Shown: positions 7,718 to 62,243 of the stretch, one piece after another
Layout of the letters: every line of letters starts with the position of its first letter
Numbering within the stretch: the stretch's first letter is position 1
Assembly: GCA_964036665.1 (NCBI GenBank)
Contig: OZ038530.1
Location: 11,062,501-11,126,500, forward strand
Direction: 5' to 3'
Length of the DNA: 64,000 nucleotides
Source of the DNA: Gordius sp. MW1
Lineage: Eukaryota; Nematomorpha; Gordioida; Gordea; Gordiidae
Made by a program: the position numbers and the translations under genes
The notes under the pieces: generated by a model
Told to the model about the DNA's origin: nothing
Databases searched by the model: none
What the model saw: the letters and a program-made list of their open reading frames with translations, nothing else

Positions 7718-7889
7718 CTCAATTTTTGATGGAATTTAAATTATGGCCATTATATCAAAATAATCCTAATTACGAAATGGATAAGTCATATGTTGTAATC
7801 ATCGTTCAATTTTAAAATAACAAATAAATTAAGGTTATCAACCGATTCAAAATAAATTGATAAAGATAATAATGTGGTCAAAAAGAGTA

Positions 7890-23387: not shown

Positions 23388-24334
23388 CCCTAACAGCTTT
23401 GAAATTATATCCATTGCCAAATATAACCACACATTTTATTTGCCCCTTAACCACAGCACCTATGAGCTAAGTTCTATTTTCAAGAGATAAACTTTTCAAA
23501 GGTATTTTGTCAAAACAGCGATTGAAATGCCCCCATTTCAGGTAAAAATCTAGATGGGCATCTGCTGGGCAAACATTCTTTATTGACTATTTTTTTATAC
23601 AATTTATATTCTATACACAGAATTTACATCTTTATTGGAGGTCAGATGTGTTTAAATTTTTCTGCCCGAATTGGGCCAGGTCAGATTTTATACCCATATT
23701 GTCCCGTGCCGCCCGAAGGGTTATAAAAGTCCGCGAAGCTTTTTCCGAATCATCCAAGCTGCCCGGCTCGACAAGATAATATTTTAAATTTTTAACAGTA
23801 ATTTTGTTTTAATTTTAAAAATTTTAATATAATTCTCAATTTTTTTCCTAATTAGAACCACAATTAATTATTACCAATATGCAATTAAATAAACAAGTGA
23901 TATAATAATATGAAAACAAAATTATACACAATATAAATAAATCTCAAGCCCCAATCGTCCGAATTTTGTTATGATGCCCGCTGGGCTTGCCCGAAAATTT
24001 TATTTCGTACAGTAGATGCCCGGACCGTTGGCTCAGATGGCCGTGTAAGTGGGCCGGGCACTTCTGGGCTCTGACTTTATTATATCATAAATAATGAAAA
24101 AATAGGAAATTTTCCCCTTCCCCCCTGAAAAAATCCTGGCTTCGCGCCTAGGTAATAGACAATAAAAATTGCATAAATTTGTTAAGGCCGGTCCCGAAGT
24201 GCTTAAGCAAAAAAAGCTCTGATAAGCCTTAGATGAGCAGGGCGTCGTCCTTCAATTGACCTAATATTTTCTTCGTATGTTTCCATTGGGAATATTTTTT
24301 TAAGCGTTATTTTAGTAGATATATATTCGTTTTT
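23388..24334. other. repeat-derived spacer with GCCCG-rich motifs
   Basis: Contains repeated GCCCGG/GGGCC motifs at about 23660-23780 and 23960-24070. Similar blocks occur near 53740-53840, 55030-55140 and 55680-55710. This points to a further dispersed repeat family whose borders I could not define. No gene seen. Confidence 0.4.
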
Positions 24335-26309: not shown

Positions 26310-26349
26310 AATTAGTAATTTTGTGAATATAGTTTTGATCTCGCCTATT

Positions 26350-34990: not shown

Positions 34991-36290
34991 AACAGTTAAC
35001 AATAAACATTAACGTCTTTCATTTGTCGCAATTACTCATAAAGTTTACAATAATTAATGTAGGCATTGTTGCCTTGATCTACAACCAACAATTTGTTGAG
35101 CATTGTTTAGATAATTGATATATGATTGCTAATATAAATTTCAAAATATTAACTATAGTTTAAAATAATACATAGGGGCGTGTAGCTAAGCATTTTAAAA
35201 ATTTAGATTAATATTAGAAAGTTTTGGAAATAAAATTGACCACGATTAGCCATTGTAGTTAAAAATAAGTGTACAAAGTACAACACGCTTAGTTTTTGTT
35301 TGTGTGGGAGTTATTCACAATTTATAAACGATTGACAACAATTAATCAATAAGATTTCTCTTAATAAAACATCAGGGATTTGTAATTTTATATCTCTTCC
35401 TCTCCATAAACGACTTTTAAAGTGCTCCTGATAATTTATTAGTGGCACAATCATTTCCATGATAATTTTTTATATTTTCATGAATTACATTTTTTGAATT
35501 GGAGCCGATTGAGGTGAGGGACTGCAAGATAACAGTCGAAATATATGAAACTATATAATAATTGCGCAAACCAAGATTTGTACGTCATATTTTACAATTT
35601 CGAATCGGGGTCAAACGTTATAAAGACACTAATTGTAAAACACCTAAAAACCCCAACCCTAACCCTATTATAGAGTACCCTAATTATGAATTGATACCTT
35701 CAGATCTACCTAAATTAAAAGCTTATACCATAATTTAAAAGCTTATATCATAATTTTTATAGAAATTTTAGGTATTTTTAGGTGTTTTATAATTAGTGTC
35801 TTTATAACGTTTGACTTGGTACGAGGGACTGTAAGATAACCAACAGTCGAAATATATGAAACTATATATATAATAATTGCGCAAACCAAGATTTATACGT
35901 CATATTTTACAATTTTACAATACTATATTACTCTATTATTTCTATTTGAACCTTTGAATTAATTAATAGGAAATTCAAAAATTTAAGTGAACCACAAACA
36001 CAATTTTTTAGATTACTTATTCTATGCAACAATAAAGTGTTAACCCTTAGAACACAAAATTCATTATTTTCCCCTTACTAATTCCTAATCATGTGACAAT
36101 ATTCGGTCAAAGTTTGTTAAAATTATCAATAAATCTATCCGTAAATTGTTTAACTTTAAATCTATTAATATGGTTGCAAAATTTTTAAATGATATAAGAA
36201 TAAATTTATCCATTAATAAAACATTTGCTCGGTCCCTGAGTAAAGCGAATGTTTGACAAGATAACACTTATAAAAACGGAAAATATTGTC
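34991..36290. other. spacer with an inverted/direct repeat pair
   Basis: AT-rich. A block at about 35515-35640 (CTGCAAGATAACAGTCGAAA, then TTGCGCAAACCAAGATTTGT) reappears in direct orientation at about 35828-35920. Between them AAACACCTAAAAA and its inverse AGGTGTTTTATAAT flank a short segment, which looks like a small duplicated or foldback insertion. One short CCCTAACCCT stretch at 35651 is not a telomere array. No gene supported. Confidence 0.5.
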
Positions 36291-36581
36291 CCCATAGATA
36301 GTGATGCGGAAAAACCGAGAAAAATCTCGGTCTCGTCTCGTCTTGAAAAACCGAGACGAGACGAGACTTTGAAAAATGGAGTCGAGATCGAGACGAGAAT
36401 TTTGAGGTCGAGACGAGACGATACGAGATTTTCTCGGCGCGATCTTGACTTTTTATTGATCGTTAGATTTTAGTAAATTATTGTGTTTTGTAATTTACAT
36501 TTAAGGTACTAAGTGTAAATCAATATGTATGGAATATTTTTGATATTAAAAAAATCCCAAGTGTAGTTAATATTATATATT

Positions 36582-36916
36582 TGTAGAGGCTCTTTCGCAC
36601 TCTACTTTCCCTTGAAACCGTCTAGGCGAATTCTATCACGTGATTTTTATTTTAATAGCCCCTCGCTTGTACTTAACCATCACGTGATTTTTATTTTAAT
36701 AGCCCCTCGCTTGTACTTAACCATCAGGTGATTTTTATTTTAATAGCCCCTCGCTTGTACTTAACCATCACGTTATTTTTTATTTTAACCTCGCTTGTAT
36801 TCAATCATCGCCGGATTATTCAAATTATAATGGGCTCGCGCAGCTAGATAAGCACAACTTTTAAAACTAACATTTATTATTCGTTTTTTCGCTTAATAAT
36901 GAAATAAACCACTTCA
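36582..36916 (+). repeat. 5' LTR
   Basis: 335 bp, TGTAGAGG...CCACTTCA. Contains three tandem ~50-bp units with CACGTGATTTTTATTTTAAT (one with CAGGTG) plus a degenerate fourth. CACGTG is an E-box palindrome, so these may act as enhancer repeats. Confidence 0.95.
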
Positions 36917-36918
36917 TT

Positions 36919-36928
36919 TGGTGACCCA
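36919..36928 (+). promoter_or_regulatory. primer-binding site (tRNA-Trp type)
   Basis: TGGTGACCCA starts two bases after the 5' LTR and is complementary to the 3' end of animal tRNA-Trp including CCA. It is the start point of minus-strand DNA synthesis. Confidence 0.8.
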
Positions 36929-36931
36929 AAA

Positions 36932-37726
36932 ATGTCCACGCAACCATCTGATATGGAGGTTAAAAGCGAAAATGCCACATATTTTAAACTGCCACAGTTT
37001 AACAATATAAACCCCCGCTCATGGTTCATCCAAATAGAGGCTCTTTTCTTGGTAAGAAAGATAAAAAGCGAAGCTACCAAAGTTGGGTACTTAATAGAAG
37101 CCTTGCCACTGGAAATAACCATCGAAATTCAAGATATCCTACAAAATATGCCCGACATTTTACCCTATACAACCATGAAAGCAGCCATCATAGACCGCAC
37201 TAGCCAATCCGATTCTGCTAGACTTCGTGCTCTTCTCACAACTGTCGAATTAGGAGATCGCACCCCATCCCAGCTTCTGCGTTTCATGAAAAATCTTCTG
37301 GGAACGAATTCCATGGATGAACGAGTTCTTAAAGAACTTTGGTTAGAAAAACTTCCAAAAAACATGACCGGCATTTTGGCAATTGTTTCTGACGAGCAGT
37401 CCCTCTCCAAATTGGCCGAAACTGCGGACAAAATTGTAGAGACCTACCACAACTCCACATGTCCAATTGTAAATGTAGTCAAGGAAGATGAATCGACTCG
37501 GCTTAGGGAGATGATTGCAAAACTCACACAGGAGGTACAAAATTTAAAAATCTCAATCAATAGGCCACGTGATCGTTCCAACTCGAGACGCCGCAATCCC
37601 TCTACCGTTCGCCACCCTAGCGCGCATATTCAACCAAATATACTTTGTTGGTACCATTACCGCTTTAAAGACAAGGCGCTCAAATGCGTGCAACCTTGCG
37701 CATTTAACCCCTCCTCGACAAACTAG
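36932..37726 (+). CDS. retrotransposon Gag
   Basis: 264 residues. The N-terminal matrix/capsid-like domain ([20 protein letters not shown]) is typical of CsRn1/Kabuki Gag. The C-terminal zinc knuckle is of CHCC form (CWYH, then KCVQPC), which distinguishes this clade from the usual CCHC. It starts 16 nt after the LTR and stops at TAG 37724-37726. The pol frame is -1 relative to gag and is open from 37708, leaving an 18-nt overlap in which a frameshift could join the two. Confidence 0.93.
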
Positions 37727-39615
37727 TAGACCACCCAGGGATGGCGACCCCTGGACTTGGTCTAAAACTTAGTCGCCTATTTTACATATTCGACAAATCC
37801 ACGGGTCAGCGATTTCTCATTGACACAGGCGCAGAAATTTCCGTTATTCCGCCTTCTCGAGACCATTATTTGACCCCTTCATATGTGCAACTTCAGGCCG
37901 CCAATTCTACCCCTATCAAAACATATGGCCAAAAGCTTTTCACTTTGGACCTCAGCCTACGCAAAGAATTTAGATGGATTTTTACAATAGCAGACGTTAA
38001 ACAGCCAATCATCGGAGCCGATTTTCTTAATCACTACCATCTAGTAGTTGATATAAAAAAGAAGCAGCTTTTCGACACTCAAACGACATTAACATATGCA
38101 GGCAAGGCTACATTCGCTACGTCAATCAACATACAAGTTGGGATAATTGGCACCTCCCCCATCAAATCACTACTTCAGAAGTATGCCTCCATAGTGTCCC
38201 CTTCTGATTATAAGGCTCAAGTAACTCATAGCACTCAACACCATATCCACACCAACGGCCCCCCGGTTCGCTCAAAACCAAGGAGACTCTTCCCGGACAA
38301 GCTTAAGATTGCCCGAGACGAATTTACTCACATGCTCGAACTTGGTATAATCCGTCCCTCTAACAGTGACTGGTCCTCACCCCTGCACATGGTACCCAAG
38401 AAGGCCGCGGGTGATTGGAGACCTTGTGGCGACTATCGCATGCTCAACAGTCGTACAATTCCCGACTGTTATCCCCTTCCCCACCTCCATGATTTTGCGC
38501 TGACCCTTTGCAATAAAACGGTATTCTCAAAGATCGACTTAGTCAGGGCATACCACCAAATTCCAATGGCCCCCGAGGATATTTCTAAAACCGCCATCAC
38601 AACCCCGTTCGGTCTTTTTGAATTTCTTCGCATGCCATTTGGCCTTCGCAACGCTGCCCAGACGTTTCAACGCTTTATGGACCAAGTTTTTAGAGAACTT
38701 GATTTTGTTTTTGTTTACCTTGACGACGTACTCATCGCGAGTTCTTCCATTGATGAACACCACAATCATATTAGACTGGTTTTTGAAAGACTCAAGTCTT
38801 TCGGTATTAAAATCAGTCAGGATAAATGCGTATGGTGTCAAAACGAAATTAATTTTTTGGGACACAAAATCACCCCTCAAGGTTTGTCACCCCTTCAGGA
38901 CAAGGTGGAAGCAATCCTCAATTTCCCACAGCCTACTTCGATGACTCAGTTGAGACGCTTCTTAGGGATGATTAATTTTTATAGACGGTTTATTCCGATG
39001 TGTGCCGATTTACTCAAACCTCTCACCGTTTTGCTAGACGGTTCAAAGAAGACAATTTCCTGCACCCCGGAAGCTTCGACTGCTTTTAACAACGCCAAAC
39101 TCGCTTTAAGCAATGTCGTGCCTCTCTCCCATCTTCAAAAAGACGCTCAACTCTCAATCACCACCGACGCCTCCAACTCAGCTGTAGGAGCCGTATTACA
39201 TCAAACATCTAACGGTAATACGCTGCCTTTGGCCTTTTTTTCCCAAAAGCTAACAAAAACTCAACAACGATACAGTGCATTCGGTCGCGAATTATTAGCA
39301 ATATATTTAACAATCCGCCATTACCGCCATTTTTTAGAAGGTCATGAATTCACTATTTATACAGACCACAAGCCACTAACTTATGCTTTCAGTACACCTA
39401 TCGACAAATACTCCCCGCGGGAGATTAGACAGTTAGACTATATTTCGCAATATACTACCGATCTCCAATATATAGCTGGCAAATCAAATGTAGTCGCTGA
39501 CACCCTCTCAAGGTCTGAAATTGATTCCGTTGATTTTAAAGACAGGCCCCTAGTAGAAAGGTTAGCTTTGGCTCAGATGGAAGAAAAGTCGGCATTTCAG
39601 GACCTAAAGCCCTAA
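37708..39615 (+). pseudogene. retrotransposon Pol, protease-RT-RNase H part
   Basis: Open from 37708. Protease with [15 protein letters not shown]. Reverse transcriptase with [41 protein letters not shown] and the catalytic YLDD (about 38716-38727). RNase H with [26 protein letters not shown] and YTDHKPL. The frame then hits TAA at 39613-39615, where a continuous polyprotein would lead into integrase. Integrase continues in another frame, so a small indel lies near 39598-39612. All catalytic residues that I can check in this part are present. Confidence 0.93.
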
Positions 39616-40415
39616 AATTAACGCAACTTCCTATACCTGGCTCTGATTTGACCGTGCAATGCGACATGTCCACAACCTCACCTCGACCACTTGTTCCAAC
39701 TTCACTCAGACGCGTAATTTTTGATAACTTCCACAACTTATCACACCCTGGCACGCGTGCAACACTTAAGCTGATTTCACGTCGATATGTTTGGCCCTCC
39801 ATCAATAAGGATGTAAGAAAATGGGCCAAATCATGCGTTGCTTGCCAAAAATCGAAGATTCATCGTCACATAAAAGCCCCTTTAGGCACATTTGCTGAAC
39901 CTGACGCTCGATTTAGCCACATCCACGTCGATCTCGTTGGTCCACTACCACCGTCGAATGGATATACCCACTTACTTACCATTATTGACCGTTTCACACG
40001 ATGGCCTGTGGCCATGCCGATCCGTGACACCTCAGCCCAAACGGTTGCAAAAGCTCTGATCAAGTATTGGATAGCTGACCTCGGAGTACCATCAAGCCTC
40101 ACAACAGATAGAGGTCCCCAGTTTGAGTCCCAATTATTTCGGAATCTCACGCAACTCCTTGGTGTAAATCACATCACAACCACTGCCTATCATCCACAAG
40201 CCAACGGCATGATTGAGAGATTTCATCGACAGTTGAAAAGTTCCTTGATGGCACAAGGTGACACAAACAAATGGGATGAGCTCTTACCATTAATTTTGCT
40301 TGGCATTCGAACCACAATCAAGGAAGACTTAGGTTGCACTCCAGCCGAATTAGTTTATGGCACTACACTTAGACTTCCCGGCGAATTTTTTTACGAACTC
40401 AAGAACACCTCATAA
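39616..40415 (+). pseudogene. retrotransposon integrase, core part (frame-shifted from pol)
   Basis: Continues pol in a different frame, with coding sense visible slightly before 39616. HHCC zinc domain (HNLSHPG, CVACQKSK). DDE core: HVDLVGPL, TTDRGPQFES and NGMIERFHRQLK. The frame stops at TAA after LPGEFFYELKNTS; the family's next segment continues in the previous pol frame. The shift falls at a run of seven Ts (about 40385-40391), so a single extra T would explain it. Confidence 0.9.
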
Positions 40416-41043
40416 CGCCTCCGAATTCATTAAATGCCTAAAACAACATTTTTACCATTTACCTTTTAAAAAAGTCAGGACACAATTGACAAATGCGAGT
40501 ACAACTTCACTTCTTAAGGACTGTAAATACGTTTTTATCCGTAATGATTTCGTTCGAAAAAGTTTGGTGCCACCATATGACGGCCCGTTCAGAGTAAAGT
40601 CCAAACATGCTAAATATTTTATTATTGAAAAAAACGGAAAAGCTGACTCAGTTTCGATCGAGCGATTGAAACCTGCATATTTAGATACTTCAACTGAGCC
40701 GCTTACGGCTACTGAAAATGTAAATCCACCCAAAGTTTGTCCCTCCGACGACATCGCCGGACCAGCTAATTCCGACCCAGACCTAACAAAATCAAAAGAA
40801 AACCAATACATCACATCGAGAGGAAGGCACGTGCATTGGCGCTATAAACTACTACACTACCCACAACTCTCCGAGTGGAGCCCCGAGGATAGTTGTAGAG
40901 GCTCTTTCGCACTCTACTTTCCCTTGACCCCGTCTAGGCGAATTCTATCACGTGATTTTTATTTTAATAGCCCCTCGCTTGTACTTAACCATCACGTGAT
41001 TTTTATTTTAATAGCCCCTCGCTTGTACTTAACCATCAGGTGA
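40385..41043 (+). pseudogene. integrase C-terminal part
   Basis: Carries VFIRNDFVRKSLVPPYDGPF, followed by VSIERLKPAYLD, the C-terminal domain common to CsRn1/Kabuki integrases. The frame runs into the 3' LTR before stopping at 41043. It is separated from the core by the one-base shift at the T-run. Confidence 0.88.
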
Positions 41044-41228
41044 TTTTTATTTTAATAGCCCCTCGCTTGTACTTAACCATCACGTTATTTTTTATTTTAA
41101 CCTCGCTTGTATTCAATCATCGCCGGATTATTCAAATTATAATGGGCTCGCGCAGCTAGATAAGCACAACTTTTTAAACTAACATTTATTATTCGTTTTT
41201 TCGCTTAATAATGAAATAAACCACTTCA
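40894..41228 (+). repeat. 3' LTR
   Basis: 335 bp, same length as the 5' LTR. Differences: two adjacent bases near 40929-40930 and one in the ACTTTTAAAA/ACTTTTTAAA stretch near 41172. The segment just before it is GGAGCCCCGAGGATAGT, only a weak polypurine tract. Confidence 0.95.
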
Positions 41229-42589
41229 TATTTTTGCAAAAAAAATTAAAATTTGGCAATCATTTACCTAAGTATGGTTGATTTTTGTCATACATTTAAA
41301 TACGTACTCATTAATTTAAAGTTTAAACCTTATGTTCTTAATTCTATAATAATGCTGCTTTTATTGTTGTTTTTACAACGTTTTAATTTGTGCAACTAGT
41401 TATCAATTCTGTAAATAATAATAACGTCATTAAATGTCACTCGCACTTTGTGGTTTATAGCGCTATAGTAAACATGCAATGAACACTATGGACTATAATT
41501 AATGATGGTTATATTAATGGACTTAAACATTTGCCTTAAATATGTTAAGGTCTACTTTGAAGCATTAGCAAAGGTTAATAAAGGGTCCCATTTTGCTCAA
41601 TTATGCAACTAAATCAACTATAAGTGAACTTATAATTTTCGAAGTCCATTTATAGTTGACAGACACAGTGAATTTAATACAAATATTATAATTTGCTAGA
41701 ACAATAAAATTTAATTTTTTATATTTCAAATTTATTTATAGTTTTTTTAGTCTGCACTTTTTATAGAAAATGTTATATTTATGAGTTAATTCATATCTTT
41801 ATATTGTCAATGAGATGTCGTGTCCCGCTAAATCTTTAAAAAGTTTGTGTATTAAAGTTTTTCGAAAAATATAAAATTTGCCATTTGGATTTTTGAACAC
41901 TTATTTATATTTTTAATAAAACAGGAGAAATTTTTATTCCGAATATATTTTTTTAAAAGTCGAGACGAGACGAGAATTCTCGTCGAAGCGAGACGAGACC
42001 GATATTTTTCTAGACCGAGACGAGACGAGATCGAGATTTTCTTAATCGCTCCCGAGACGAGACGAGATTTTGTTTTCGAGATCGAAACACTACACATAGA
42101 GGCGTCATTCTTTAAGTACGCAAATAACAGATTAATATAAAATATTGGACAATTTCGGCAAACCCGTTTAATTGCAAAGCCTCAAGGCCTGAGAAAAAAT
42201 TCGTAACCGATATTTCGCTATTAAACGATGGAAATAAAAATATATGTACATGTACATTATTTTAAATATTACGCTTCGCAATTAAACGATATTAATTGCT
42301 ATGCAATTTATGGGCTCGTTTTTGGTGCGTCGTCCGTCGTCCGTCCACCAAGTTATTGGCGCCAGCTTTGTGACCTGGAGGTGTCGGGTTCAAGCCAGGG
42401 AGGAGACGAATTTTTTTTTAATTTCTTTAAATTAAATTAATATTTTGTTCTTGTTAATACCATTGATAATATGGATTTTTGACCGTCCGCTGGCTACTGA
42501 CCAATGTAAAAAATGACCATTGGCCAAATAAATCGAAATTTTATTTTTTCGTCTTTGAATTGGGTATATTAGGTTAACATTGATAAATA

Positions 42590-42735
42590 CCCTTTGCCCT
42601 TTCCTACAAGGGCCTACGCCTCTACTGATATGGGTCCCTATGCCCCTACAAAAGCATATGCCTTTACTAATGTGGGTCCCTGTGCCCCTACAAAAGCCTA
42701 TGCCTTTACTAATGTGGGTTCGAATCCCGGAGATG
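42590..42735 (+). repeat. short tandem repeat inside composite copy C
   Basis: Three or so imperfect ~46-bp units built on CCTTTACTAATGTGGGTCCC and CTACAAAAGCCTATGCC. Related blocks (in inverse sense) occur in the 50-51 kb copy. It expands the segment between microsatellite and core. Confidence 0.75.
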
Positions 42736-43805
42736 GCAAAATTTCTATTTTTTTTTCAATTATATTAGTATATTGTTCTTGTGAATACCATTCATAATAT
42801 GACTTTTTGACAGTGTTCTGGCTGCTGACCAATGGAAAAAAATGACCATTGGCCAAAATGTGATTCGAAAATTTTTTTTTAGTTTTTTTTGACTATTATG
42901 AATTTATATCCACTTTTACCGTGTCCTGGCTGCTGACCAATGAAAAAAATGACCATTGGCCAAAATGTGATTCGAAATTTTTTTTTTCGTTTTTTTTGAC
43001 TCTTATGAATTTATATCCACTTTTACCGTGTCCTGGCTGCTGACCAATGGAAAAAAATGACCATTGGCCAAATTTTATATATAACCTAAAAATTTATTAT
43101 AGATGGTCTAACAGACAGCCAACTATGTAATATATATTTTTAACCTTATAAATGCATATATATTTTTTTATTGGGTTAATATATTTCATTTAATTAGATT
43201 GTGATTTCATAGAAAACCTAAAAAGTAATAGTTAAAAAAATATAGGTATTAGATTCTAATTTACGATACAATATATTGATAAAAACTAACACAAAATTTG
43301 AAACCTCCTTCAAAGGTATAATCATAGCCCGTTCTTTCTAAATAAATTCAATCTACTATTAAACTATTAAAACACGAATTGTACTTTATTAGATGGCGCG
43401 CGTAAGTTTATATAATTAGTAAAATTTTCTACGTGTTATAGATATTACACCGCACGTGTGGCCGGGAAATGTCCGATATTTTTAAAACGAAATGGTATTT
43501 TAGGAATCTGAAAAGGCTATTTTACCCCTGGCCGCCCTGGGCACCTACGGGTAAAGTTTCGAGCGAATCGGGCGGGTAGTTTCAGTATTTAGCTTTTTTT
43601 TAAAACTAAAAGGAATTTTTATTTTAGTTTTTTTTTCTTTAAAATTAAAATATTATGTTCTTGTTAATACCATTGATAATTTGACTTTTTGACCGTCCGC
43701 TGGCTACTGACCGATGAAATATATTGATTTTATAAACATAAAACAGAACTTTATTATTTCATTATCTATATAAATATCATAATAACTTCTACTATTTTAA
43801 TACCA

Positions 43806-43885
43806 GCATGGTGTGACGGGTTATAGCGCACGGCTTGTAAAGAGGGTGACCTGGATGTCCCGTGTTCAAGCTCGGGAGAGGGCAA
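43806..43885 (+). repeat. tRNA-like SINE head in composite copy C
   Basis: The segment starting GCATGGTGTGACGGGTTATAG has an A-box-like start and, about 45 nt later, a good B-box (GTGTTCAAGCTCGG), followed by GAGAGGGC and an A/T-rich tail. This is the layout of a tRNA-derived pol III promoter. It lacks a foldable mature tRNA and is not called as a tRNA gene. Confidence 0.55.
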
Positions 43886-44470
43886 AATTTTTATTTTTTT
43901 TTTAAATTAAATTAATATTTTGTTTTTGTTAATATCATTGATAATATGACTTTTTGATCTTCCGCAGGCTACTGACCAATTTAAAAAATAACCATTGGCC
44001 AAATAAATCGAAATTTTTTTTCGTTTTTGAATTGATTAACATTGATAATTACCCTATGTCCTCCCCTACAAGGGTCTATAACTAATTATTTTGCATTTAA
44101 TACCCCCCTATAGGCATTCTCGCCCCTTCCTACCTTTCTCGCCCATAAATTGCATAGCAAATATGCTACGTTTATACGGAGTATAGATGAGTCGCCCCCC
44201 TTCCCTTCCCCCCCCCCCTTCCCTTCCCCTACTCCCCTTCCCCTACTCCCCTTCCCACGAGGGCCGAAGGCCCGAGTTTTTTTATATATTATCTGGTTGA
44301 TTTAAGGACTCAAAAATGTTTGTGAATATCCGATATTGTACTATTAAGCGATTTGTCAATAAACGATGTTTTTGTTAATATTATCGTTTAAAAAAAAACA
44401 AAATGGCGGTTAACTTCGCGATTAAAAGATTTTCGCGATAATCCGATTTGCGATTAAGAAGTTTCGACTA

Positions 44471-44790
44471 TAGAGGGTAGATTTCAACAGAATCTAGCCT
44501 GTTTAAACAAACTTAGTTTTGATATAACAAAATAAGGTTTAGAATTTTAATTGGGTCAGGTGCTAAACATTTAAAATTCGAAGTGTTGAAAACAGAACAA
44601 TTTGTCAACACTTTTGGCCACATTCTTGTTAAAATATTTCCGGGTCATGAGGCTATTTGCCATGCCCATTTCCGGGTCATGAGGCTATTTGCCATGCCCA
44701 TGCGGGATTTAGTAACAAACATTTTATATAATCCTTAAAAAATTCTATTCACCATTCGACATTAACTTAAATGATATGTTGATTTATAAA
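44471..44790. other. short spacer with a 33-bp tandem duplication
   Basis: A 33-bp block (GGGTCATGAGGCTATTTGCC core) is repeated perfectly in tandem at about 44637-44702. Nothing else recognised. Confidence 0.7.
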
Positions 44791-46357
44791 TTTTTTTTTT
44801 TTTTTAAGATAAAATTTGTTTATTGATATATATTTAACCATAATATTAAATGGTACAAATATATAATAATGATATTAAAAAAAAACATTATATGAGTAAT
44901 ATGTTTTCATCTTCCTCTTTTAGAAGAGGCCAGGAATCCAAAAAAGATTTGAAATTAAATTTTGCAATTAAGATGGCTATTGATTGTTTTAATAAAAATG
45001 CGGGGGAATATTTGGAGGGAGGGGATCGCCTGCCTATTTCTTTGAATAAAGCCAACGCCATTTTTCCATTTGAACAGGAGGAACCTATTGGGACAAAAAT
45101 ACTAGAGTCCAGAAGGGCCTTGTATTTTTGAAGCTTGCGTTCTTCGGCGAGGGCCATGGGGTCATAATTAAGATTAGAGGGGGCAAATAGGTCTATGCAT
45201 GTAAAATCCCACTTTAAAAGAAGACCATTTTCCCATGGGACTAGCGATGAACCGTCAGGACGCATTCGACCTTCAAGGGCAGGATCTGAAGGTTCAAGTA
45301 TGGATGGAATTTGGGCCTTTCTAAGGGCTGACTGGATAATAGAATTAATTTTAAAGTGTCGCAAGTGTCTAAATTTATTAAGTCTGCAGTGTAACGGGTG
45401 GCGTGCTTCTTCATCCACAGGCAGGTTGCAATTTTTACAGGCATATGCCCTTGTGTATTTTATTCTAGGCGTAGTGCTACATTGTAGGATAGCTCGCAAT
45501 CCTCTAACATCATATTGGAAAACCTGCTAGGAAAAGCCTCTAGCCATTCATGTCCAGATTTATCAAACACCAAAGATCTAAGCTTGTAATGTTGTTTGGT
45601 ATCGCAGCTCGAAAGGAGATAAGCAACGGAGCGCGAAACCAAACATGCATCCCAATCCTTTTGATTTGGTGTTTGTGGTGGTGAGCTTTCTGGTAGAACA
45701 TTTAAATTCCAAAGAGATAGGGCCTGTATAAATGTTTCATCAAGGGGGTATGAGATTAGTTTGGCGACGATGGATTTTGAGGATAAGTGGGATGATATAA
45801 ATGAGGCCAAAAATAAGGAGCTTGGTGAACGAATTTCCAGACCCCCAGATTTTGTTGGTAATGTGGCTTGTAGCCAGGTGTTAGTATCGAATGATAAGTT
45901 CAGGATGGATTCGATGACAGATTTTATGTGGGTTTCGAAATTATGTAAAATATGTGTGTGCAAAAATGCGCTTGTTGATCGGAAGCAAAATAATATTTTG
46001 GCTATATTAAAGTAGTTTTTCAATATGTAAAATGAGTGATGGGCGGGCATAAGCTTAAAAATTTCATTTTTACATTTTAAATTTTTAAGGTTATTGTCGA
46101 GATAACTTCTTAAGCATTCAGGACCGCCTATTGGAGAACCTAGTAAAAATACCTCGTCCTTCTCGAGGCGTAGAAAAGATGCAAAGGATGGGTGGATGTC
46201 AGTTGTGCTGTCAGAATAAATTTCGCATTTTGTCGCGTTTAATGATAGGTTAAGTTTTATGTAGTATTCATTAATGATGTTAAGAGCTTTGATTAGCTCT
46301 TCCGTGGTGCCTGATAGGGTGGCATCGTCGAGATACCATACGTTTAACCTCAATAAG
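44791..46357 (-). pseudogene. 5'-truncated retroelement: reverse transcriptase C-part plus restriction-like endonuclease
   Basis: Minus strand. Reads from the RT active site WYLDD (about 46330-46345), through FLLGSPIGG and a thumb-like region (LPTKSGGLEIRS), to a CCHC knuckle (CKNCNLPVDEEARHPLHC) and a restriction-like endonuclease block (RPDGSSLVPW, KWDFTCID, KYKALL). The two frames, 46353-45460 and 45499-44888, overlap and differ by a frameshift near 45470-45490. A run of 15 T at 44791-44805 is the 3' poly(A) tail. The RT fingers and N-terminus are absent, as in typical 5'-truncated LINE insertions. RT followed by CCHC and RPD...D is the layout of early-branching, RLE-type non-LTR elements. 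Confidence 0.85.
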
Positions 46358-46549
46358 TTAGACTATTTACGTTTATATATATTCATGATGATTTCGATCG
46401 TTTTAAATATGGATAAATAAATCAGGTAAAACATAATAAGAATTTTTGTAAACTATTGCATTGTTATCCCCTAAAACTTACTTATTCAAGCATTAGCAAT
46501 ATTTATTAGTATATTAAAGATATAAAATATAATAAATTAGATGCAAAAT

Positions 46550-47949: not shown

Positions 47950-48420
47950 ATATCTATAATTACTTTACTTTAAACTTTTTAGACGCTTGATTAAACATTT
48001 TCAAATGATAGATCGCTGTCAAGCCGATGCCAACAGTTTCCAATCGCACATATCTTATTCTAAATTCACTGGCTAGTAGTTAAATTGGAACAATATGTAA
48101 ACTTTCATATTGTTAATATTAACTTTAAAATTAGTGCCATCTCACTTATTGATAATAATCATAAAGTATTGTTAATTCGGTTATAAACATTTTATTAATA
48201 TTTGACAAGGGAATAAATCATACATTAATTTGGGATTTTGCTCAACATTTTAACGCATAAAATATTTTTTATAACAGCTTTTACCTAAGAAAGATAACAT
48301 TTTAATTTATTAGATACATGTTCTTATAATAGACTATTTGTCGAATAAGTTATTTAATCCTAAAGTGATTCATAATACAATAGTAAGGAATAATCAACAC
48401 AGAAAGTTATTCGAAATTAC

Positions 48421-48557
48421 ATGTTTGTAGATTAGTAATGTGATTTATATCAATGTTACACCAATCGCCATCACAACAATACATTCCTTTTAAGTGACGG
48501 AAATTGTTCATGGGAGCCCGAGATGGACAATAAGATACTTCATCTGGTTGTATACAC
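48421..48557 (-). CDS. TGF-beta type I receptor-like ectodomain exon, alternative version 2
   Basis: A 137-nt exon with acceptor CAAAG|G at the 48557 side and donor T|GTAATT at the 48421 side. After one base it reads CIQPDEVSYC..., ending GMYCCDGDWCNIDI. The pattern C-I...C...CC-x-x-x-x-CN-x-x-D is the second half of the three-finger ligand-binding domain of activin-type I receptors (ALK4/baboon). It has the same entry phase, exit phase and length class (2 mod 3) as the exon at 50283-50425, so the two cannot be used together in frame. Transmembrane, GS and kinase exons are not visible in the window. Confidence 0.65.
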
Positions 48558-49511
48558 CTTTGAATAATTAAAAATTTGATAAAAATTATAAATTTTCTGT
48601 CAAATTATCTTCTGATATTTATAAAAGTTATTTTATTTAAAAACATATTGAAAGATGTATTATATATATCAATAAATAGTGGGCAAGTTGACAAAATATG
48701 AGTGGATCGGTACTTTTAAGAAATTTACAAGATGATAATGGGCCATTAATTTGTTTCAGGAATATTTTACTCAAAGGCCCATCTTGATGCGGCTAATAAG
48801 AAATCTTCAATATGTATTGTTGTGTTGATTTTTTAAGCTAAATGCTAATACTACAATATTTCTTAATTGTTCATCTTTTTAAAGTCCTGCGATGTTGGGA
48901 TTATGCAACCCAAATACCCCCTGAGCCCTGACTTCAAGCATCATTTTTTGAAACCGACTTCATACGTCTCTTAGCTTGGCATGAACACGATTTGTCGCTT
49001 ATCCTGTTAATTTGAGCTTTTAATCAATTTTAAAACTAAAATGCTCGAATCCTAACTCATTCAAAGAATTTTAACTCTCAGTCAGGGTTTCGGGTAGCTC
49101 AGTAGGTCTCACAGCTCTACTAAATTTTTATTATTCCAAGGGATGACTCCAGCATCAAGATACTTAAAAAAGGGCGAAGAGAGGGCTATAGAGGACATCC
49201 ATCTCAACTTTGAATCCTCCCCCTCCGCCCCTATGCAAAGCGTGTATAATTTGGCTAATATATTGGGACACCATTTTACGAAAAATCTTTAGTAATTCTA
49301 ATGTCTTATTCCCATTCATCTGTCTACATTGTAAAACTGATTTATAAAACAGTAATTTTGAAAAATATCTTTACAAAAATTTATTTTCTGATTTATCGTT
49401 GTGAATTGATATGTACGTATAACATTTCACACCATTTGGGCACACTCGATCAATTGCATTCATTACAATAGCACGTCACATTCCCTCATCTCGATTCACT
49501 GATAAGATTTA

Positions 49512-49846
49512 CAGTCGAAACTTCTTAATCGCAAATAGGATTATCGCGAAAATCTTTTAATCGCGAAGTTAACCGCCATTTTGTATTTTTAAACGATAAT
49601 AATGACAAAAACATCGTTTATTGACAAATCGCTTATTAGTACAATATCGGATATTCACAAACATTTTCGATTCCTTAAATCAACCAGATAATTATATAAA
49701 ATATCGATTTATTGCAAAGCGTAAGAAATGAATATTTAATGTAAGTACATATACTTTTATTTCCATCGTTTATTAATCGCGAAATATCGGTTAATCGAGA
49801 AAAAAAATTTCAGGCCCAAGGCTTTGCAATTAAACGGTTTTGACTG
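49512..49846. mobile_element. TA-flanked MITE (pogo/mariner-like), intact copy
   Basis: 335 bp, ends CAGTCGAAACTTCTTAATCG and TTAAACGGTTTTGACTG, flanked by TA (49510-49511 and 49847-49848). The TA duplication and CAGT terminus are typical of Tc1/mariner-pogo elements. Lies in the intron between the two receptor-like exons. Confidence 0.88.
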
Positions 49847-50282
49847 TATAATAAATTTCTTTAAAACCATTCTTACATTTATGAAGTTATATTTATATAT
49901 ATAAACAATAAACATTCATCCTCATTACTTAGGTTAGATTTATAGTCAGCGTCAACCACTATAATAAATAAAGATTTATGGTAAAACATATTATATATAT
50001 AATTTGTGAAATATCTCAACTGAATTAATGTAGATTTGGAGTTGTCTAAAATTAAAGTTGGCACAAAATTGATATTTTAATAGCAAACTATAATTATAAA
50101 TTTTTATCTGACACAAGGCCCTGGCTCTTGAAAATCGGAAGAGTAATTTTTTGTTTGTAATATTTTATACTCGATTATTATATCATTTTATTTTTGCCTA
50201 ATTTAAGTATTTTAATATTTGAAAAACAAATTAGATATTATTTAAGACAATTATTTAAGCCGTTCCAATAAAAAGGGCTTAC

Positions 50283-50425
50283 GTTGTCCGTTAAGCTGTT
50301 GCAAGTCTTCCATTTTTGCATTGCACCAATGTCTGCTATTACAGCATCCTACCATGCTGTCACTGTTGGAATTCTGCGCATATCGTCGCACGCATTTTTG
50401 TTTTGCCTGCATCTCATTCAAACAT
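50283..50425 (-). CDS. TGF-beta type I receptor-like ectodomain exon, alternative version 1
   Basis: A 143-nt exon with acceptor CTAG|A at the 50425 side and donor C|GTAAGC at the 50283 side. It reads CLNEMQAKQKC..., then MVGCCNSRHWCNAKM. The cysteine spacing at the CC....WCN end matches the 48421-48557 exon, with a similar C(L/I)...C start but little other identity, as expected of an ancient exon duplication. It could alternatively belong to a Ly6-type three-finger protein. The exon for the first half of the domain was not found. Confidence 0.65.
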
Positions 50426-50619
50426 CTAGTTAAATATTATTAACGTTTCGCTGATATAGTATATAAATTCTTTGTCGTTCTTATTACCAATCCAATAGTT
50501 AAAGAATACAACTTCTTTATAGATTAAATCAGATTATTTGTAGATTTACCGTTCTATAATAAATTGGCCTACAATTTATAGACATTTTAAGCGTAGAAGC
50601 TTGATCTTGGCCTTAAATA

Positions 50620-51464
50620 ATGAATAAAATGGTCATTTTTTTCATTGGTCAGGAGCCAGGACACGGTTAAAAAGTCATATTATTAATGGTATTAACAAGA
50701 GCAATATATTAATTTAATTTAAAAAATAATAAAAAATTTACCCTCTCCGGTTAACCAGCAATTAAAAATTTGCCCTCGCCGGGATTCGAACCCACATCAG
50801 TAGAGGCATAGACTTTTGTAGGAGGGGGAAAGGCACAGGGACCCATATCAGTAGAAGCATAGGCCCCTCTACGGAAGGGCATAGGGTAATTATCAATTTT
50901 AACCTAATATAGCAATTCAAAAAACGAGAAAAAAAAATTCGAATCACAATTTGGCCAATGGTCATTTTTTTCATTGGTCAGTAGACAGCGGACAGCCAAA
51001 AAGTCATATTTTTTAATGGTATTAACAAGAACAATATATTAATTTAATTTAAAAAAAAAATAAAAATTTTGCCCTCTCCGGGATTCGAACCAGCAATTAA
51101 GAATTCCCTCGCCGGGATTCGAACTTACACACAGGGACTCATATCAGTAGAGGCATAGGCCCTTGTAGGGGAGGGCATAGGGTAATTATCAATGTTAACC
51201 TAATATACCAATTCAAAAACGAAAAAAAAAATTTCGAATCACAATTTGGCCAATGGTCATTTGTTTCATTGGTCAGTAGCCAGCGGACGGCCAAAAAGTC
51301 ATATTATTAATGGTATTAACAAGAACAATATATTAATTTAATTAAAAAAAGAATTGTCCTCTCTGGGGATTGAACCTGCAAGTTAGAAAGTGACGGTGTA
51401 AGAACGTTGGAGGACGGACAACGGACGGACAACAAAAAGCGAGCCCATAAAGTGCATAGCAATT
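50620..51464 (-). repeat. composite HINE-like repeat, copy D (minus strand, 3' end missing)
   Basis: The right edge holds the inverse of the family 5' end (GAGCCCATAAAGTGCATAGC) and a GGAC microsatellite (about 51407-51430). Leftward follow B-box-like GGGATTCGAAC copies (about 50781, 51080, 51117) and core units (about 50630-50690, 50945-51010, 51240-51310). The internal block is duplicated. The C/T tract and hairpin are absent, so the copy is truncated at its 3' side. Confidence 0.7.
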
Positions 51465-52078
51465 AAAACTATTATCTTTATGACTCAAAAAAAAAATATA
51501 TTTACCTTAAAATTTTTCACATATTTTTCTTTCAATTCCGGGTAATCATGAATGATAAATAGAAGTACTCCGCCCGTTTAAAACGGCTTCTTTAGTTCTG
51601 GAAGCTGATCAATACCCAACCTTTCACAATATATTGATTCAATATTACCAATTACTCAGTGATCTTTCACAATCAGACTACTTTGCCTGCCTAAAAATAT
51701 AGCTCTATGGTGTTTATACGATGAATAAAGAAATATATTATATGGCGCATTGACGAGTATTATATCGATGTTACCCTTGCGAATAATCCACTTTTGAAGA
51801 TACTAATTAAAATTGCCTATAGATGGCGCTAATTAGAGGAAACTTTTAACTTAATTGCAGCTCCTGAAAGGGATTATTATTATCTTCTGAATATTATCAA
51901 AAACCCGCAATTTATTATCTATATGTTTTAAAAATTTAAATTCTTAGCTTTAAATGATTAGCTGTAAATTGTAACGATTGAAAGATTTTTTATTTCAAAC
52001 TTATCCTAGTTGTAAATTACGAATAATAACAATCTAATGCATTCTGATGGTAAATTTATTTTCAAAAATTTAATTTTT
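51465..52078. other. spacer
   Basis: A minus-strand segment (about 51506-51575) reads LLFIIHDYPELKEKYVKNFK up to a GTAAAT donor and faintly resembles a globin helix, but a stop lies just upstream and nothing extends it. A block at about 51755-51805 (TATTATATCGATGTTACC) recurs near 57523-57570, so it is a dispersed repeat. Confidence 0.35.
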
Positions 52079-56807: not shown

Positions 56808-59800
56808 CTAATCATCCTCGTCGCCGGGTTTGGCAGATCTAGGTGTAGGGCCCCCAGCTGGTTTAGCCATAATAATCTGAAATAATTAAACAATCAACGA
56901 TTAATAAAAAAAGTTGAAATATGGATAAATGATAAATTAATAAAATAAAGAAGCGCAGCAATAGCCAGTCAGGATGACACTGAATTCAGCACAGCGAGCC
57001 GCAAACAAATTTAGCGAAATGGGATAATTTTCAGAAAATAGATTATAGCAATTAAAACAATTAATTTGAAAAGCGTTTTACATTGATTCTTTAAAAAAAA
57101 ACCAACGGCAAAAATCATCATAAGCTTTCATTTTTTAAAAACACAATGGATTTTCAATAAGGGATGGTTAAAACCCAAAAGCTTAGGTACAAATGGTATA
57201 AGGGTAAAATTATTAAAGATTTGAGTCCAGTCTTGCAAGATCGTTCTTAAAAAATTCGCAATATTTATTTACCTTATCAATAGATAATATGATAGAGGCA
57301 GCGTGAGTCGCATATTTGATGGCCCACTCCTTGACAATCAGAGGATCATAAATGTGATCTTTAGCGGCATCTTTGATCGTTGGTACTCCAACCGACTAAA
57401 TAAAATTTGCCGAAAATATTATAATTACTGTAAAGAATTATTGAATTGTAATTGTTTTGTTATGTTCTAGAAATGTGTCGATTCGATGCTTAACTAATAA
57501 ACTATTATCTTTATATGATGAATATTATATCGATATTATCCCCTCGCGAATAATTCACTTGTGAAGATACTATAATTACTTTTCAAATTTTGGGGAAAAT
57601 GAATCAAAAAGACTTATTACCCCGATTTCAAAGCCCATTGTCTGATGGCCGGCTTGATGTTCTGCGTTCAATTTAGAAACCAATTCCATCGGCTAAAAAT
57701 AAATTTCATAATTGGCATAACAAATTATCCCAAAATAACTTTAAAAAATATTTATATTCACCAAATTTACCTTGACACCGGCATTTTCTCCCAAAGCCCT
57801 AGGGATGCACAATAACGATTCACCAAACTTCTTAACCGCATATTGTTCAAGCCCCGGCAATGACTAGAATTGCAAACAGTAAAACTCAATTTAGGGAAGA
57901 GATAATAATATTCAGAAGAAAAGATTTGTATTAAGCCATTTTCAAATTAATACCTCATTTTAACTTTCCAGATGTTTAACAATTTGTTTTATTATTGCCA
58001 AAACAAGGATATTTTTGCTAAAATAAACTAATGTACTAGCAGTCCAAATTCAACACAGTTTTTGCTCATTCAGTATAATTAACTAAATAAAAAAGAGGGC
58101 TAATACCGTTTAGCTATTTTAACACACCCATAACTCAACTCAATAAAGATAAAATTAAGAGGCATTATTGATATTTCGTATTACAAATAATCACTTACGT
58201 CTCCATAAGCCGAAATTTGTAGAGATAATTCAACTTCGGAAGCGGAAGCACCTGGCACAACCCTAGGATCCTGTGATAAAACAACATTTTGGATATTTTT
58301 TGCAATAAAAAAAATTACAATAATACCTAATAATTCGGGTTAATACATTAACTTGGAAGATTCCCTCTACACATATAAAAACCGTTTTATTAATGCATTG
58401 TGCAATCTTAAATAGGGGCCACAAACATAACCGATAAAAAAATTATTTTACTAAAATCAATGAAACTTTTTAGTTTTGCTTTTCCACATTTTCTTAAAAA
58501 TTACTCTGGTCAGGGCTTTATAGTTATTGACTCCGTCATCAATAGCCCTCTCGATATCGTCCATGATGTTATCGCTAGAGCCTCGTACCACGATAGTAAC
58601 TAAGGCGCTATCTTCCTTCTCTATAAATAATTTACAATATTTTCCGTGAGATGATGTAATGTTTTGAAAACTAAAAATTATTTACATGGGAAAAAATGTA
58701 ATTATTTTTAAATACATTATCAAGAAGGTCATTCGTCGTAGGCATAGAATGATAAAAAATCGTTGAGACGGCAAAACAAAGTGATTTAAAAATAATCGTA
58801 AAGATGTGACATTGCCTACACTTTTGCAATAAGCGTGGATAAAAAACTCTGTAAAAACGAATAAGCAACGCGTTCTTAAAAATCTAAAACCTCCTTTCGA
58901 GTGCGATGGAACTAGGCACATTAAGCATTAAGAAATTTGGCTTTAAAATTTAAAAATCTGTACACTCACTCTATAATTCCATATTTTAAATAAAATTGTT
59001 ATAAAGATTAATTAAACTCACCCTGGTTGAATATGACAACGTGAGTTTCCCCAATTTCGTCAATGTAAACTTTTTGACAATGACCCAAATCTTCCTTGCG
59101 GGGCGCTTCCTATCATATCACAAATTGAAAATTTATTTTTCCGTAGACCAATGATACATTTAATCACTCCTAAATTGAAATTTTATTATAAATTTGTTAT
59201 ATAAAAGCTTATTCGAACTCAAATTTAAAATGTTGTGTAGAGAGAGCAGGCATATAAATTAAGGGTCTTGGCAGATTATAACGCACAATAAAAGCATTTA
59301 ATCACGATAAGTTGTGCTAAAAATTATGTGAGTATGTTAGTGTTGTGAAAACGGCTGAGTTTCGTCTGGCCGACCTTTAATTTTAGTCGACTTAATATCT
59401 ACATAGACTAAAGCTTTTTTTTTGTCTGTTTTTCTTAGTGGCATTAAATGAAGGTTTTTTGGTTAAACCTATGGTCCGTTTGTGTTAAGTCGACTAAAAC
59501 CAAAGGGCGACCAAACAAAACCCAGCCGTTTCTGCAACAATAGAGTATATCTTTTTGCAAACACCATACGACAACATAAAAATCGAAAATAAATTTCTCT
59601 CGCACGTGCCGAATTTTTAACAGAATTTACATATGATCACATTATATATATGTATTTTAAGTACCCATTAAAATGCATAAAAATATCACGATAGAAAGGT
59701 ATGGAGGAGACTCACTAGGGAGGGAAACACGCGGGCTTGAACGGCTTTAGCTATGCGTCTAACGTCAAATTTGGAAGTCAATCGGACGAGCATGATTTTG

Positions 59801-62243
59801 TGCTTGTTGGCGAAGTGAAGAGCCATGTCCCCTATCTTGCCCCCGGTAACCAACACGTTACAACCAGAATCGGCTATAGCCTTGATTTGCTACGAGGAGG
59901 GGGAGACGATAGAGGAAGAATAAAAATTATGTAAATTTAGCTGATTTTTTTATTTTAAACTTAGCTATGTTTTATTAAAAGATATTTATGTATTTACATA
60001 GTCAAGTACGCCTCACATTAAAAGACAAGTTAAACAAGCGTATTTATAAAAATTGAATCATAATATTAAATTTTTTCTGTAATTTAAGTCGTTAAAAAAA
60101 TTATCAGACAAAAGTAACGTAGATGGAAAGCAGTTTAATTAAAATATTTTCAATCGTGAATCTATTTTAAATGTTTCCAGCCTGATGAGACAAAAAACTT
60201 GAATTGCCAAGCTTTTTGCCAAAGTTCTAAATCCTTAATCGGTTAGTTTTACAAAGTGATTCGCTTCTCGTTAAATGAGATTTTAATTAAATAAGTTTAT
60301 GAAATAAGTGAATACAACTAGCATAGATTATTATCAAAATGAGGATATATAACTCACAATTGATATAAAAGTTAAGAGATTAGGATTTTACTCACCGTCG
60401 TTCTTAAAAGTATGTATTTATGAATTAATTTTTATTAACCACATAAAATAATTTGATATAAAGTATACCCATTGTATATTTATTTCGTATTAGAAGTTTT
60501 ATACACGTTAATTTGTCTAGGATGAAAAAATAAATGTTTTGTAAAGCTAAATGAGCGGGGGGAAAAACACAAAAAGCCTGTTAAAACACCGTATTTTCCC
60601 AAACTAGACGTCCAGGAAGTAATATATGTAACAACGCGAACAAACAACCAAAATTACAAAATTACAGATTCCAAGAGATTTTCTTCGCCCTGGCTGTAGT
60701 TCTTGAGCTCGGCGGCACTCTTGATGAGGACGGTGCCCTTAGTTTCGGTTTGCAGAGAGTCGAAGGGGCAGGAATAGACCGCTATTTTGGCGTTGACCAC
60801 GCTGGTTATATCACTTTCAACCTCGTGTTTAAACACCATACCCGAAACTATGGTAGATTGCTGGATGCCAGAACCCTATCATAGAAAAAAATTGAACAAC
60901 AAACTCGAATTAGTTCGTCATAACTTTAGCCTTTGAGGGAAGAGAGGCTAAGCTTAGTGAATGGGGAAACGCTTGGCACAAGCGCGCTTAGCGTCTCCCC
61001 GCTACGTAACGGAGCGTTTTGTATGCGCTAGTGCTATCGGCGCTAACTACGCTATGGGGCTATAAGCGTAGCAATTTTGTTATTATGTGGTCGGGCATTT
61101 GATAATTACCTAAACTAAATTGTTACTATAAAGAGGCAAGTATTAAACGAATTTTGAATTAGAGCTGAAAGAGACAATTTGGAACTAAATAAAAAACCAG
61201 TCAATTTAGGTTTAAATATATCAGTAATTGGATAACACCCCAGCGATGTGCGCCACAAAATAAGTAGCTTTTAAGTGAAGATATTTTGGGTCAAGGTGGG
61301 GCTAAAATGATCTTTTGATATCCGAAACTGCTTAACTTTACAGATAACATAGGATATCATGATTGGTAAATAGAATGGGCATATTATTCACGCACATTAC
61401 AGGGTATCGACAAAACCCGAATTTCCACAAGATTACCTATTACAATATAAGCATGAGCAGAAAACTGAATAGCGGTGTAATGCATTGATGTTCTGTGACA
61501 AAAAACACAACAACTTATTACTTTGGGTAAAAACTATTTTATTTTTCCCCTTTTAAGCATGTTATGAGTTTGAATTTTGCCAGTAACCGCAAATTTATGC
61601 TCATGGAATGCAGTTCACAAGTGAAACAATTTTTATGAAAATTCCATTGCCAAATAGATTATTCTTGATCATGATTATAAAATTAGTTACACCAAAAATG
61701 TTATAGAATAAACACCAATGTTATTTACCAGTATCTTGCAAACTCTAATGTTGTCCACATTGAATGTATCCTTGCCTTGTGCTTTTGCCATGACTATAAC
61801 ATATAATATGCATGTATTATTGATAGACTAAAATAAAAATGTGACACCTAATTTACTCTGATATAAAAGAAAACTAATTACCAAGACTGAGAAATTGTAT
61901 ACAGCCAATTCTTATAATTTGACAAAGTTTAAAGATAACTTAACTCAATATCTCCTTTCTCATATTAACTATAGATATTTAACTAAACAAATCATTGAAA
62001 AACTATAATAAAACAATTAACTTCTAAAGCAGAAAAACCTTTAAAAAAATTCCTTCATAATAATGCATAGAAGTTGTATTTAATTATATGTCAATTCAAG
62101 TTTTCAAAACTTACTGCATGCTCTAGCTATGAGTGGAGCCAAGAAATCTTCATTACCATATTGTTTGCTCATTATACTGGATTTTAGAAACTTTACCATT
62201 TCCTCTTGGCTGTCAAAATTCTTAACTTGATCACAAGTCATGC
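56808..62243 (-). CDS. CCT8: T-complex protein 1 subunit theta (CCT8), 3' eleven exons (partial)
   Basis: Exons high to low: 62243-62115, 61793-61729, 60875-60666, 59889-59716, 59109-59022, 58620-58505, 58270-58199, 57863-57771, 57692-57621, 57395-57273, 56876-56808 (stop TAG). All junctions are GT-AG and in frame, giving the last ~402 residues of a ~548-residue family. Landmarks: SSIMSKQYGNEDFLAPLIA, FNVDNIRVCKILGSG, KIAVYSCPFDSLQTETKGT, AIADSGCNVLVTGGKIGDMA, ERAIDDGVNNYKALTR and VVPGASASEVEL (intermediate/ATP-binding regions), PGLEQYAVKKFGESL, then IIMAKPAGGPTPRS at the end. The IIMAKPAGG tail marks the theta subunit. TRiC/CCT folds actin, tubulin and other cytosolic proteins. The usual GGG of the VPGGGATE motif reads GAS here. 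The N-terminal ~145 residues lie beyond 62243, outside the recognised sequence. Confidence 0.95.
59338..59542. mobile_element. hAT-type MITE, TAGTGTTG family, copy 2 (CCT8 intron)
   Basis: Ends TAGTGTTGTGAAAACGGCTG and CAGCCGTTTCTGCAACAATA, flanks GAGTATGT (59330-59337) and GAGTATAT (59543-59550), seven of eight identical. Same inner GTCGACT/AGTCGAC motifs as copy 1 in ESS2. Confidence 0.83.

Follow-up and report, generated by a model that had tools for sequence, protein, structure and literature searches.

The locus studied here raises the question of whether two short, cysteine-rich exons on the minus strand, e1 and e2, are interchangeable versions of one half of a receptor ectodomain, to be used one at a time as in Drosophila baboon. 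The window referred to throughout is the whole stretch of DNA that was analysed, 64,000 nt in length. We consider it fairly probable that a single type I receptor gene of the TGF-beta superfamily uses e1 and e2 on the minus strand as baboon-like alternatives, one excluding the other. The observation of the two exons is confirmed by the present analysis, and their interpretation as parts of an activin receptor is partly supported. The exons, their cysteine boxes and the interval between them are positioned as follows.

50283..50425, minus strand: e1, candidate alternative exon of 143 nt, phase in 2 and out 1, type I receptor-like ectodomain C-half
48421..48557, minus strand: e2, candidate alternative exon of 137 nt, phase in 2 and out 1, type I receptor-like ectodomain C-half
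50320-50346, minus strand: cysteine box of e1, CC-x5-CN
48455-48478, minus strand: cysteine box of e2, CC-x4-CN
48558..50282, minus strand: interval between e1 and e2, 1725 nt

The coordinates, strand, lengths and phases that the first-pass annotation had given for both exons are exact to the base. Each exon is open in one frame (47 codons in e1, 45 in e2), sits between an AG and a GT, and is predicted to encode the peptide CLNEMQAKQKCVRRYAQNSNSDSMVGCCNSRHWCNAKMEDLQQLNGQ in the case of e1 and CIQPDEVSYCPSRAPMNNFRHLKGMYCCDGDWCNIDINHITNLQT in the case of e2. In both, the first base completes a codon and the next codon specifies Cys, and both end shortly past the CN of the box, 12 residues beyond it in e1 and 11 in e2, with one codon base left open; this last exon base is c in e1 and t in e2. 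Given the open frame, a single AG is possible before the first Cys of e1 and a single GT after its CN; e2 has a single GT after its CN as well, together with two AGs that place the exon start at 48596 or 48557 in the same phase. All four splice dinucleotides are intact, the window is without any N, and both exons lie outside any repeat common to other parts of the window. The exon ending previously described as CC....WCN stands insofar as a CC..CN box is present in both exons, but the wording was loose, since the spacing is CC-x5-CN in e1 and CC-x4-CN in e2. On the opposite strand, the antisense of e1 (50246-50440, plus strand) is likewise open and cysteine-rich, with 7 Cys in 45 residues, and is probably a by-product of the e1 codons.

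Because both exon lengths equal 2 modulo 3, the frame constrains how the exons can be combined. Splicing e1 and e2 together leads to a stop after 16 further codons (the junction codon counted), and skipping both breaks the frame because the exon phases no longer match; a coding transcript can therefore contain one of the exons at a time only, barring a further, unseen exon in the interval. The one-at-a-time logic put forward before the present analysis thus holds for joining and for skipping alike.

The cysteine pattern was then compared with chance. The full pattern (C, C and CC-x4-5-CN in one open frame), which was written after the exons had been seen, occurs twice in the window and never in 300 versions of the window shuffled by dinucleotides; the same shuffles contain 61 instances of the bare CC-x4-5-CN box. 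For a less circular comparison, a profile was built from seven vertebrate type I receptors, using their C-halves only, and was run against the ORFs of at least 12 residues in the six frames of the window, 3487 in number. In this ranking, e2 comes first with E=9.4e-6 and e1 second with E=0.21 (the third ORF has 0.58), so that about 0.2 chance matches of the strength of e1 are expected; to judge from this profile, e2 stands out and e1 alone does not. The type I C-half pattern with its CC-x4/5-C-N box is present firmly in e2 and weakly in e1. Against the PDB, e2 yielded nine weak matches, seven of them to chains of the activin-receptor family (E 0.058-0.76, over 14-17 residues), with ALK1 and ALK2 leading and an ACVR2B/ACVR1B entry among them, and the other two to subtilisins; e1 had no relevant match in the PDB, its hit being a designed disulfide peptide. 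In Pfam, no match to e2 was returned, and Activin_recp was matched by e1 with 12.4 bits and E=0.34, under the cut-off of 20.9. The mutual likeness of the two exons is marginal, with 6 of 400 and 8 of 400 shuffles scoring as well. A third alternative exon was sought as CC-x(2-8)-CN in six frames of the window, and this motif is found at e1 and e2 only.

Splice signals were scored with a matrix built from 10 donors and 11 acceptors of the CCT8 gene, read by eye in the window, and the sites of both exons were ranked among the 1030 AGs and 1096 GTs of the minus strand between 35 and 57 kb.

50426..50427, minus strand: acceptor AG of e1, weak, with 546 of 1030 AGs scoring higher
50281..50282, minus strand: donor GT of e1, with 86 of 1096 GTs scoring higher
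48558..48559, minus strand: acceptor AG of e2, with 60 of 1030 AGs scoring higher
48419..48420, minus strand: donor GT of e2, with 54 of 1096 GTs scoring higher

When the CCT8 acceptors were scored by leave-one-out, 1 of the 11 fell below the e1 acceptor, which makes the latter weak and not impossible. Synonymous codon usage, trained on 1734 codons that include stop-to-stop ORFs that may enter introns, supports neither exon as coding and counts mildly against them: 21% of null draws score at least as high as e1 and 83% at least as high as e2, at the low power of 47 and 45 codons, and the CCT8 control exon belongs to the training set. With respect to RNA structure, 20 pairs of inverted repeats lie near e2 by raw count, one arm of which covers the e2 acceptor. 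A splicing switch based on RNA structure near e2 was considered and rejected, because the 725-nt fold is unremarkable (z -0.94, with 2 of 20 shuffles as good).

The kind of receptor was addressed by pairwise scoring of e1 and e2 against eleven proteins, with 400 shuffles as the null. For e2, the highest score is that of ALK2 (58, z 6.8, 0 of 400 shuffles as good), followed by ACVR2B (48), ALK5 (46), ALK1 (45), ALK4 (44), CD59 (42), ACVR2A (41), ALK7 (35), BAMBI (35), BMPR1A (28) and BMPR1B (27). For e1, the pseudoreceptor BAMBI gives the best single match through its ectodomain, although a marginal one (41, 7 of 400 shuffles as good), and BMPR1B (37), ACVR2B (37), ACVR2A (35), ALK5 (34), ALK2 (34), ALK1 (33), ALK7 (30), BMPR1A (24), ALK4 (23) and CD59 (21) follow. 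The C-half of the ectodomain in vertebrate ALK1-ALK7 has the cysteine pattern of both exons, with the x4 spacing of e2 or the x5 spacing of e1, the latter being common to e1 and BMPR1B; among these vertebrate type I receptors, e2 fits ALK7, BMPR1A and BMPR1B poorly. The activin type II receptors ACVR2A and ACVR2B score within the same ranges, and the sequences used for them carry an extra cysteine pair in the C-half that is absent from e1 and e2. On these sequence grounds, a type I receptor-like identity of the predicted peptide has good support in the case of e2 and is plausible for e1 by position, phase and pattern. The activin-type I identity claimed for the encoded ectodomain half is therefore retained in part, as a type I-like C-half in e2 and less firmly in e1, but not as regards the activin branch, since e2 scores best with ALK2 and next with a type II receptor, ACVR2B; at 45-47 residues, the peptides leave branch and clade undecided.

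The comparison with Drosophila begins from a known case. In PMC7371420 and PMC11195991, baboon is described as giving three receptors through the mutually exclusive exons 4a, 4b and 4c, which differ solely in the ligand-binding domain, and this agrees with the use of alternative ectodomain exons that had been attributed to baboon at the outset; Myoglianin, Activin-beta and Dawdle are thought to favour baboon A, B and C, respectively (PMC11195991). According to a figure legend of PMC12124520, the last base of baboon exon 4 is a single g that completes a common Asp codon, and isoform primers across the exon 4 junction translate as SVQ|DYV and VLP|DYVP (PMC7371420); taken together, these data indicate that the fly exon exits after codon base 1, just past the Cys box, as e1 and e2 do. 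Similarly, the fly box CCKSDFCN has x4 spacing (PMC12124520), and a babo-b primer, which encodes KDRDF flanked by incomplete Cys codons, agrees with x5, so that the fly boxes seemingly show the same pair of spacings as e2 (x4) and e1 (x5). The alternative exons of baboon encode the ligand-binding part of a type I ectodomain, as the two candidates here are predicted to do, and the arrangement characteristic of the baboon type, namely a neighbouring pair of non-symmetric exons that agree in phase and encode the same portion of the ectodomain, is found in e1 and e2. The two systems differ in that three versions exist in the fly and two were found here, that the common exons and the kinase of baboon are known whereas none were found in the window, and that the exon closes with g in the fly but with c in e1 and t in e2; the likeness in phase to the fly concerns the exit. 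A literature search returned no report of such exons in a type I receptor other than Drosophila baboon, which falls short of proving their absence, since papers on beetle isoforms did not surface in it; in one beetle paper (PMC10703416), the words isoform, exon and splic are absent. In mammals, Tgfbr1 has 9 exons, and the bivalve gene has 10, according to PMC3510168. Vertebrates are not known to have an alternative version of the ectodomain C-half.

A complete receptor gene would require an N-half upstream and a kinase downstream of the two exons. Candidate N-half exons were enumerated over 48.56-64 kb as AG..GT stretches of at least 22 residues with at least 4 Cys and the required exit phase (2), which gave 12 candidates with four end points, one inside e1 and three upstream of it; the three upstream were rejected, as they do not resemble an N-half. 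By the same definition, no candidate lies within the 1725-nt interval, and neither pattern, profile nor exon enumeration recovered an N-half anywhere in the window, where the best profile match has E=2. A common N-half could sit past 64000, be split or be too diverged. On the kinase side, six frames of the window contain neither the GS box [ST]GSGSG nor an HRD-type kinase motif (one split by an intron would escape), and all three frames of the minus strand were negative for kinase and GS families at 9.0-18.9 kb and 20-64 kb; at 1-9.0 kb and 18.9-20 kb of the minus strand, the search consisted of the motif plus a few ORFs. The kinase part may lie beyond the window. The kinase exons, said by the first-pass annotation to be absent from the window, were indeed found nowhere in the parts searched. 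The gene model is harder than was first assumed, as e1 and e2 are flanked on their own strand by CCT8 on the upstream side and by a single-exon membrane-protein ORF on the downstream side.

56808-62243, minus strand: CCT8 (T-complex protein 1 theta), PDB match to the theta subunit, 11 exons read by eye
33878-35008, minus strand: membrane-protein ORF, 377 residues, single open frame, one membrane segment

The last exon of CCT8 ends IIMAKPAGGPTPRSAKPGDEDD-stop, with the stop codon at 56810-56808, so that the gene ends 6.4 kb upstream of e1; the window did not reveal its N-terminal part. The membrane-protein ORF lies 13.4 kb downstream of e2 and carries a WCC motif at the inner edge of its membrane segment and further CxC/CxxC pairs in its tail, and no Pfam family matches it at cut-off. 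As a downstream exon of the receptor it was rejected: its frame is uninterrupted, a stop lies ahead of its own Met, some 200 residues precede the membrane segment and an AATAAA follows the frame, so that a separate gene is the simpler reading. Consequently, a receptor gene must either begin in the 6.4 kb gap, with an N-half that escaped recognition and may be split, and reach its kinase past 33.9 kb, or host its neighbours in introns, or be a fragment.

If e1 and e2 are alternative exons of one receptor gene, each would encode the C-terminal half of a three-finger ligand-binding ectodomain, a segment that starts at a conserved cysteine, includes the CC-x4/5-CN box and ends in the membrane-proximal linker. 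Either exon would be joined to a common N-half exon upstream (to the right) and to a common transmembrane, GS and kinase part downstream (to the left), neither of which was found in the window, and the transcripts that encode a receptor would be those with exactly one of the two. By analogy with Drosophila baboon 4a/4b/4c, the choice between e1 and e2 may shift the preferred ligand with the kinase unchanged.

Several other explanations account for parts of these observations. One is that e2 alone is a live receptor exon and that e1 is a duplicate that is old, unused or in decay, or else an ORF rich in cysteine by chance, which we judge unlikely: the profile E of 0.21, the weak acceptor, the lack of a relevant PDB match and best pairwise matches scattered among BAMBI, BMPR1B and ACVR2B, the last a type II receptor, all agree with a dead e1, but the exon keeps an open frame of 47 codons, shows a good donor and phases identical to those of e2, and carries a complete C..C..CC-x5-CN pattern that the 300 shuffles lack. 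Another concerns Ly6 proteins, which have the three-finger fold and the CC..CN ending in common with receptor ectodomains; e1 and e2 might accordingly belong to two Ly6/uPAR-type genes, or to one protein that carries the three-finger domain twice in tandem, with a separate N-half exon in each case. The first-pass annotation had suggested alignment with ALK4 and Ly6 proteins, and the resulting scores are 44 for ALK4 versus 42 for CD59 with e2, and 23 versus 21 with e1; the CD59 score of e2 (z 3.1, 4 of 400 shuffles as good) speaks for a Ly6 origin, and that of e1 is at noise (z -1.1). Two separate Ly6-type genes, which the same annotation had named as an outcome contrary to its own, were looked for, but the interval between the exons holds no candidate that leaves in phase 2 and has 4 or more Cys, and no N-half match in the window is better than E=2. 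Moreover, unlike CD59, whose three-finger cysteine pattern ends in CC..CN, both exons end at a usable donor 11-12 residues past CN with an open codon; unspliced read-through would add 10 codons in e1 and 4 in e2 before a stop, too few for a GPI-type hydrophobic tail, so that neither an N-half of its own nor a last exon running to a stop or GPI signal, as in a single-domain Ly6 gene, was found for either. No Ly6 family was matched by e1 or e2 in Pfam at E up to 10, in a search whose filters remove most weak matches, and the Ly6 explanation appears very improbable.

The remaining two explanations concern the receptor itself. It may be one other than baboon, either a BMP-branch type I receptor (ALK1/2/3/6; saxophone/thickveins in flies) or a kinase-less, BAMBI-like pseudoreceptor, an explanation that overlaps the preferred one and differs from it solely in clade. 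The leading scores of ALK2 with e2 and of BAMBI, BMPR1B and ACVR2B with e1, the BMPR1B-like x5 spacing of e1 and the failure to find a kinase where it was searched for are in its favour; nevertheless, 45-47 residues are too short to place a clade, e2 scores low with BMPR1A and BMPR1B, and the alternative exons of this kind found in the literature are those of baboon, so that we hold it possible but doubtful. It is also conceivable, although decidedly unlikely, that e1 and e2 are an orphaned receptor fragment, cut off by transposon-driven rearrangement or an assembly misjoin and no longer making a receptor. Such a fragment would agree with the missing partner exons on either side within the window, with the 16% of the window that matches other window parts and with a young gypsy-type element downstream, but it is opposed by the intact state of both frames and of the four splice dinucleotides in a sequence free of N.

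Should the preferred reading of two mutually exclusive exons in one type I receptor gene be true, the locus would represent another, diverged case of a receptor that switches its ligand by the swap of one ectodomain exon, a mechanism itself already known from Drosophila baboon, and both the age of this switch and its restriction to the activin branch would become testable. If both exons are used, the two receptor versions could be assayed directly for ligand preference. A wider version of this reading, which we regard as speculative and rather unlikely, is that the receptor gene is far longer than 64 kb and holds CCT8 and at least one further same-strand gene in its introns, and that the animal lies outside the insects or the receptor belongs to the BMP branch, in which case C-half swapping would be older or wider than fly baboon.

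The rest of the window contains transposon-derived sequence and several further genes.

36577-41229, plus strand: gypsy-type LTR retrotransposon, RVT_1 and RNase H matches, open frames in pieces
44888-46362, minus strand: two open frames, sub-threshold RVT_1 match, E=0.011
10819-12399, plus strand: Galactosyl_T ORF, 526 residues, intronless-looking, E=4.8e-40
4155-7735, minus strand: Es2 nuclear protein gene (Pfam), four open pieces in order
17275-17418, minus strand: CPSF6-like domain, RSLD_CPSF6, E=1.3e-19

The LTRs of the gypsy-type element (from 36577 and 40889) are 99% identical over 300 nt, which points to recent transposon activity downstream of e2, and the two open frames at 44888-46362 are probably a fragment of a non-LTR retrotransposon. 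A match to the hAT dimerisation region (E=8.6e-6) lies at about 27.5-27.7 kb and a FLYWCH match just under cut-off (E=1.5e-4) at about 32.7-32.9 kb, both on the minus strand. A diverged family of short repeats, with up to 22 overlapping window matches, occupies 50628-51468, 42159-44472 and 24300-26700, thereby reaching 200 nt upstream of e1. Part of its copies carry a tRNA-like GGTTCGAATCC box. Searches for tRNA genes and Rfam families gave no match. Among the four pieces of the Es2 gene, 6347-6937 and 7385-7735 are over the Pfam cut-off, and 4158-4700 and 5319-5663 are weak. Upstream of the CPSF6-like domain, a proline/histidine/alanine-rich ORF (20355-20744) may belong to the same gene.
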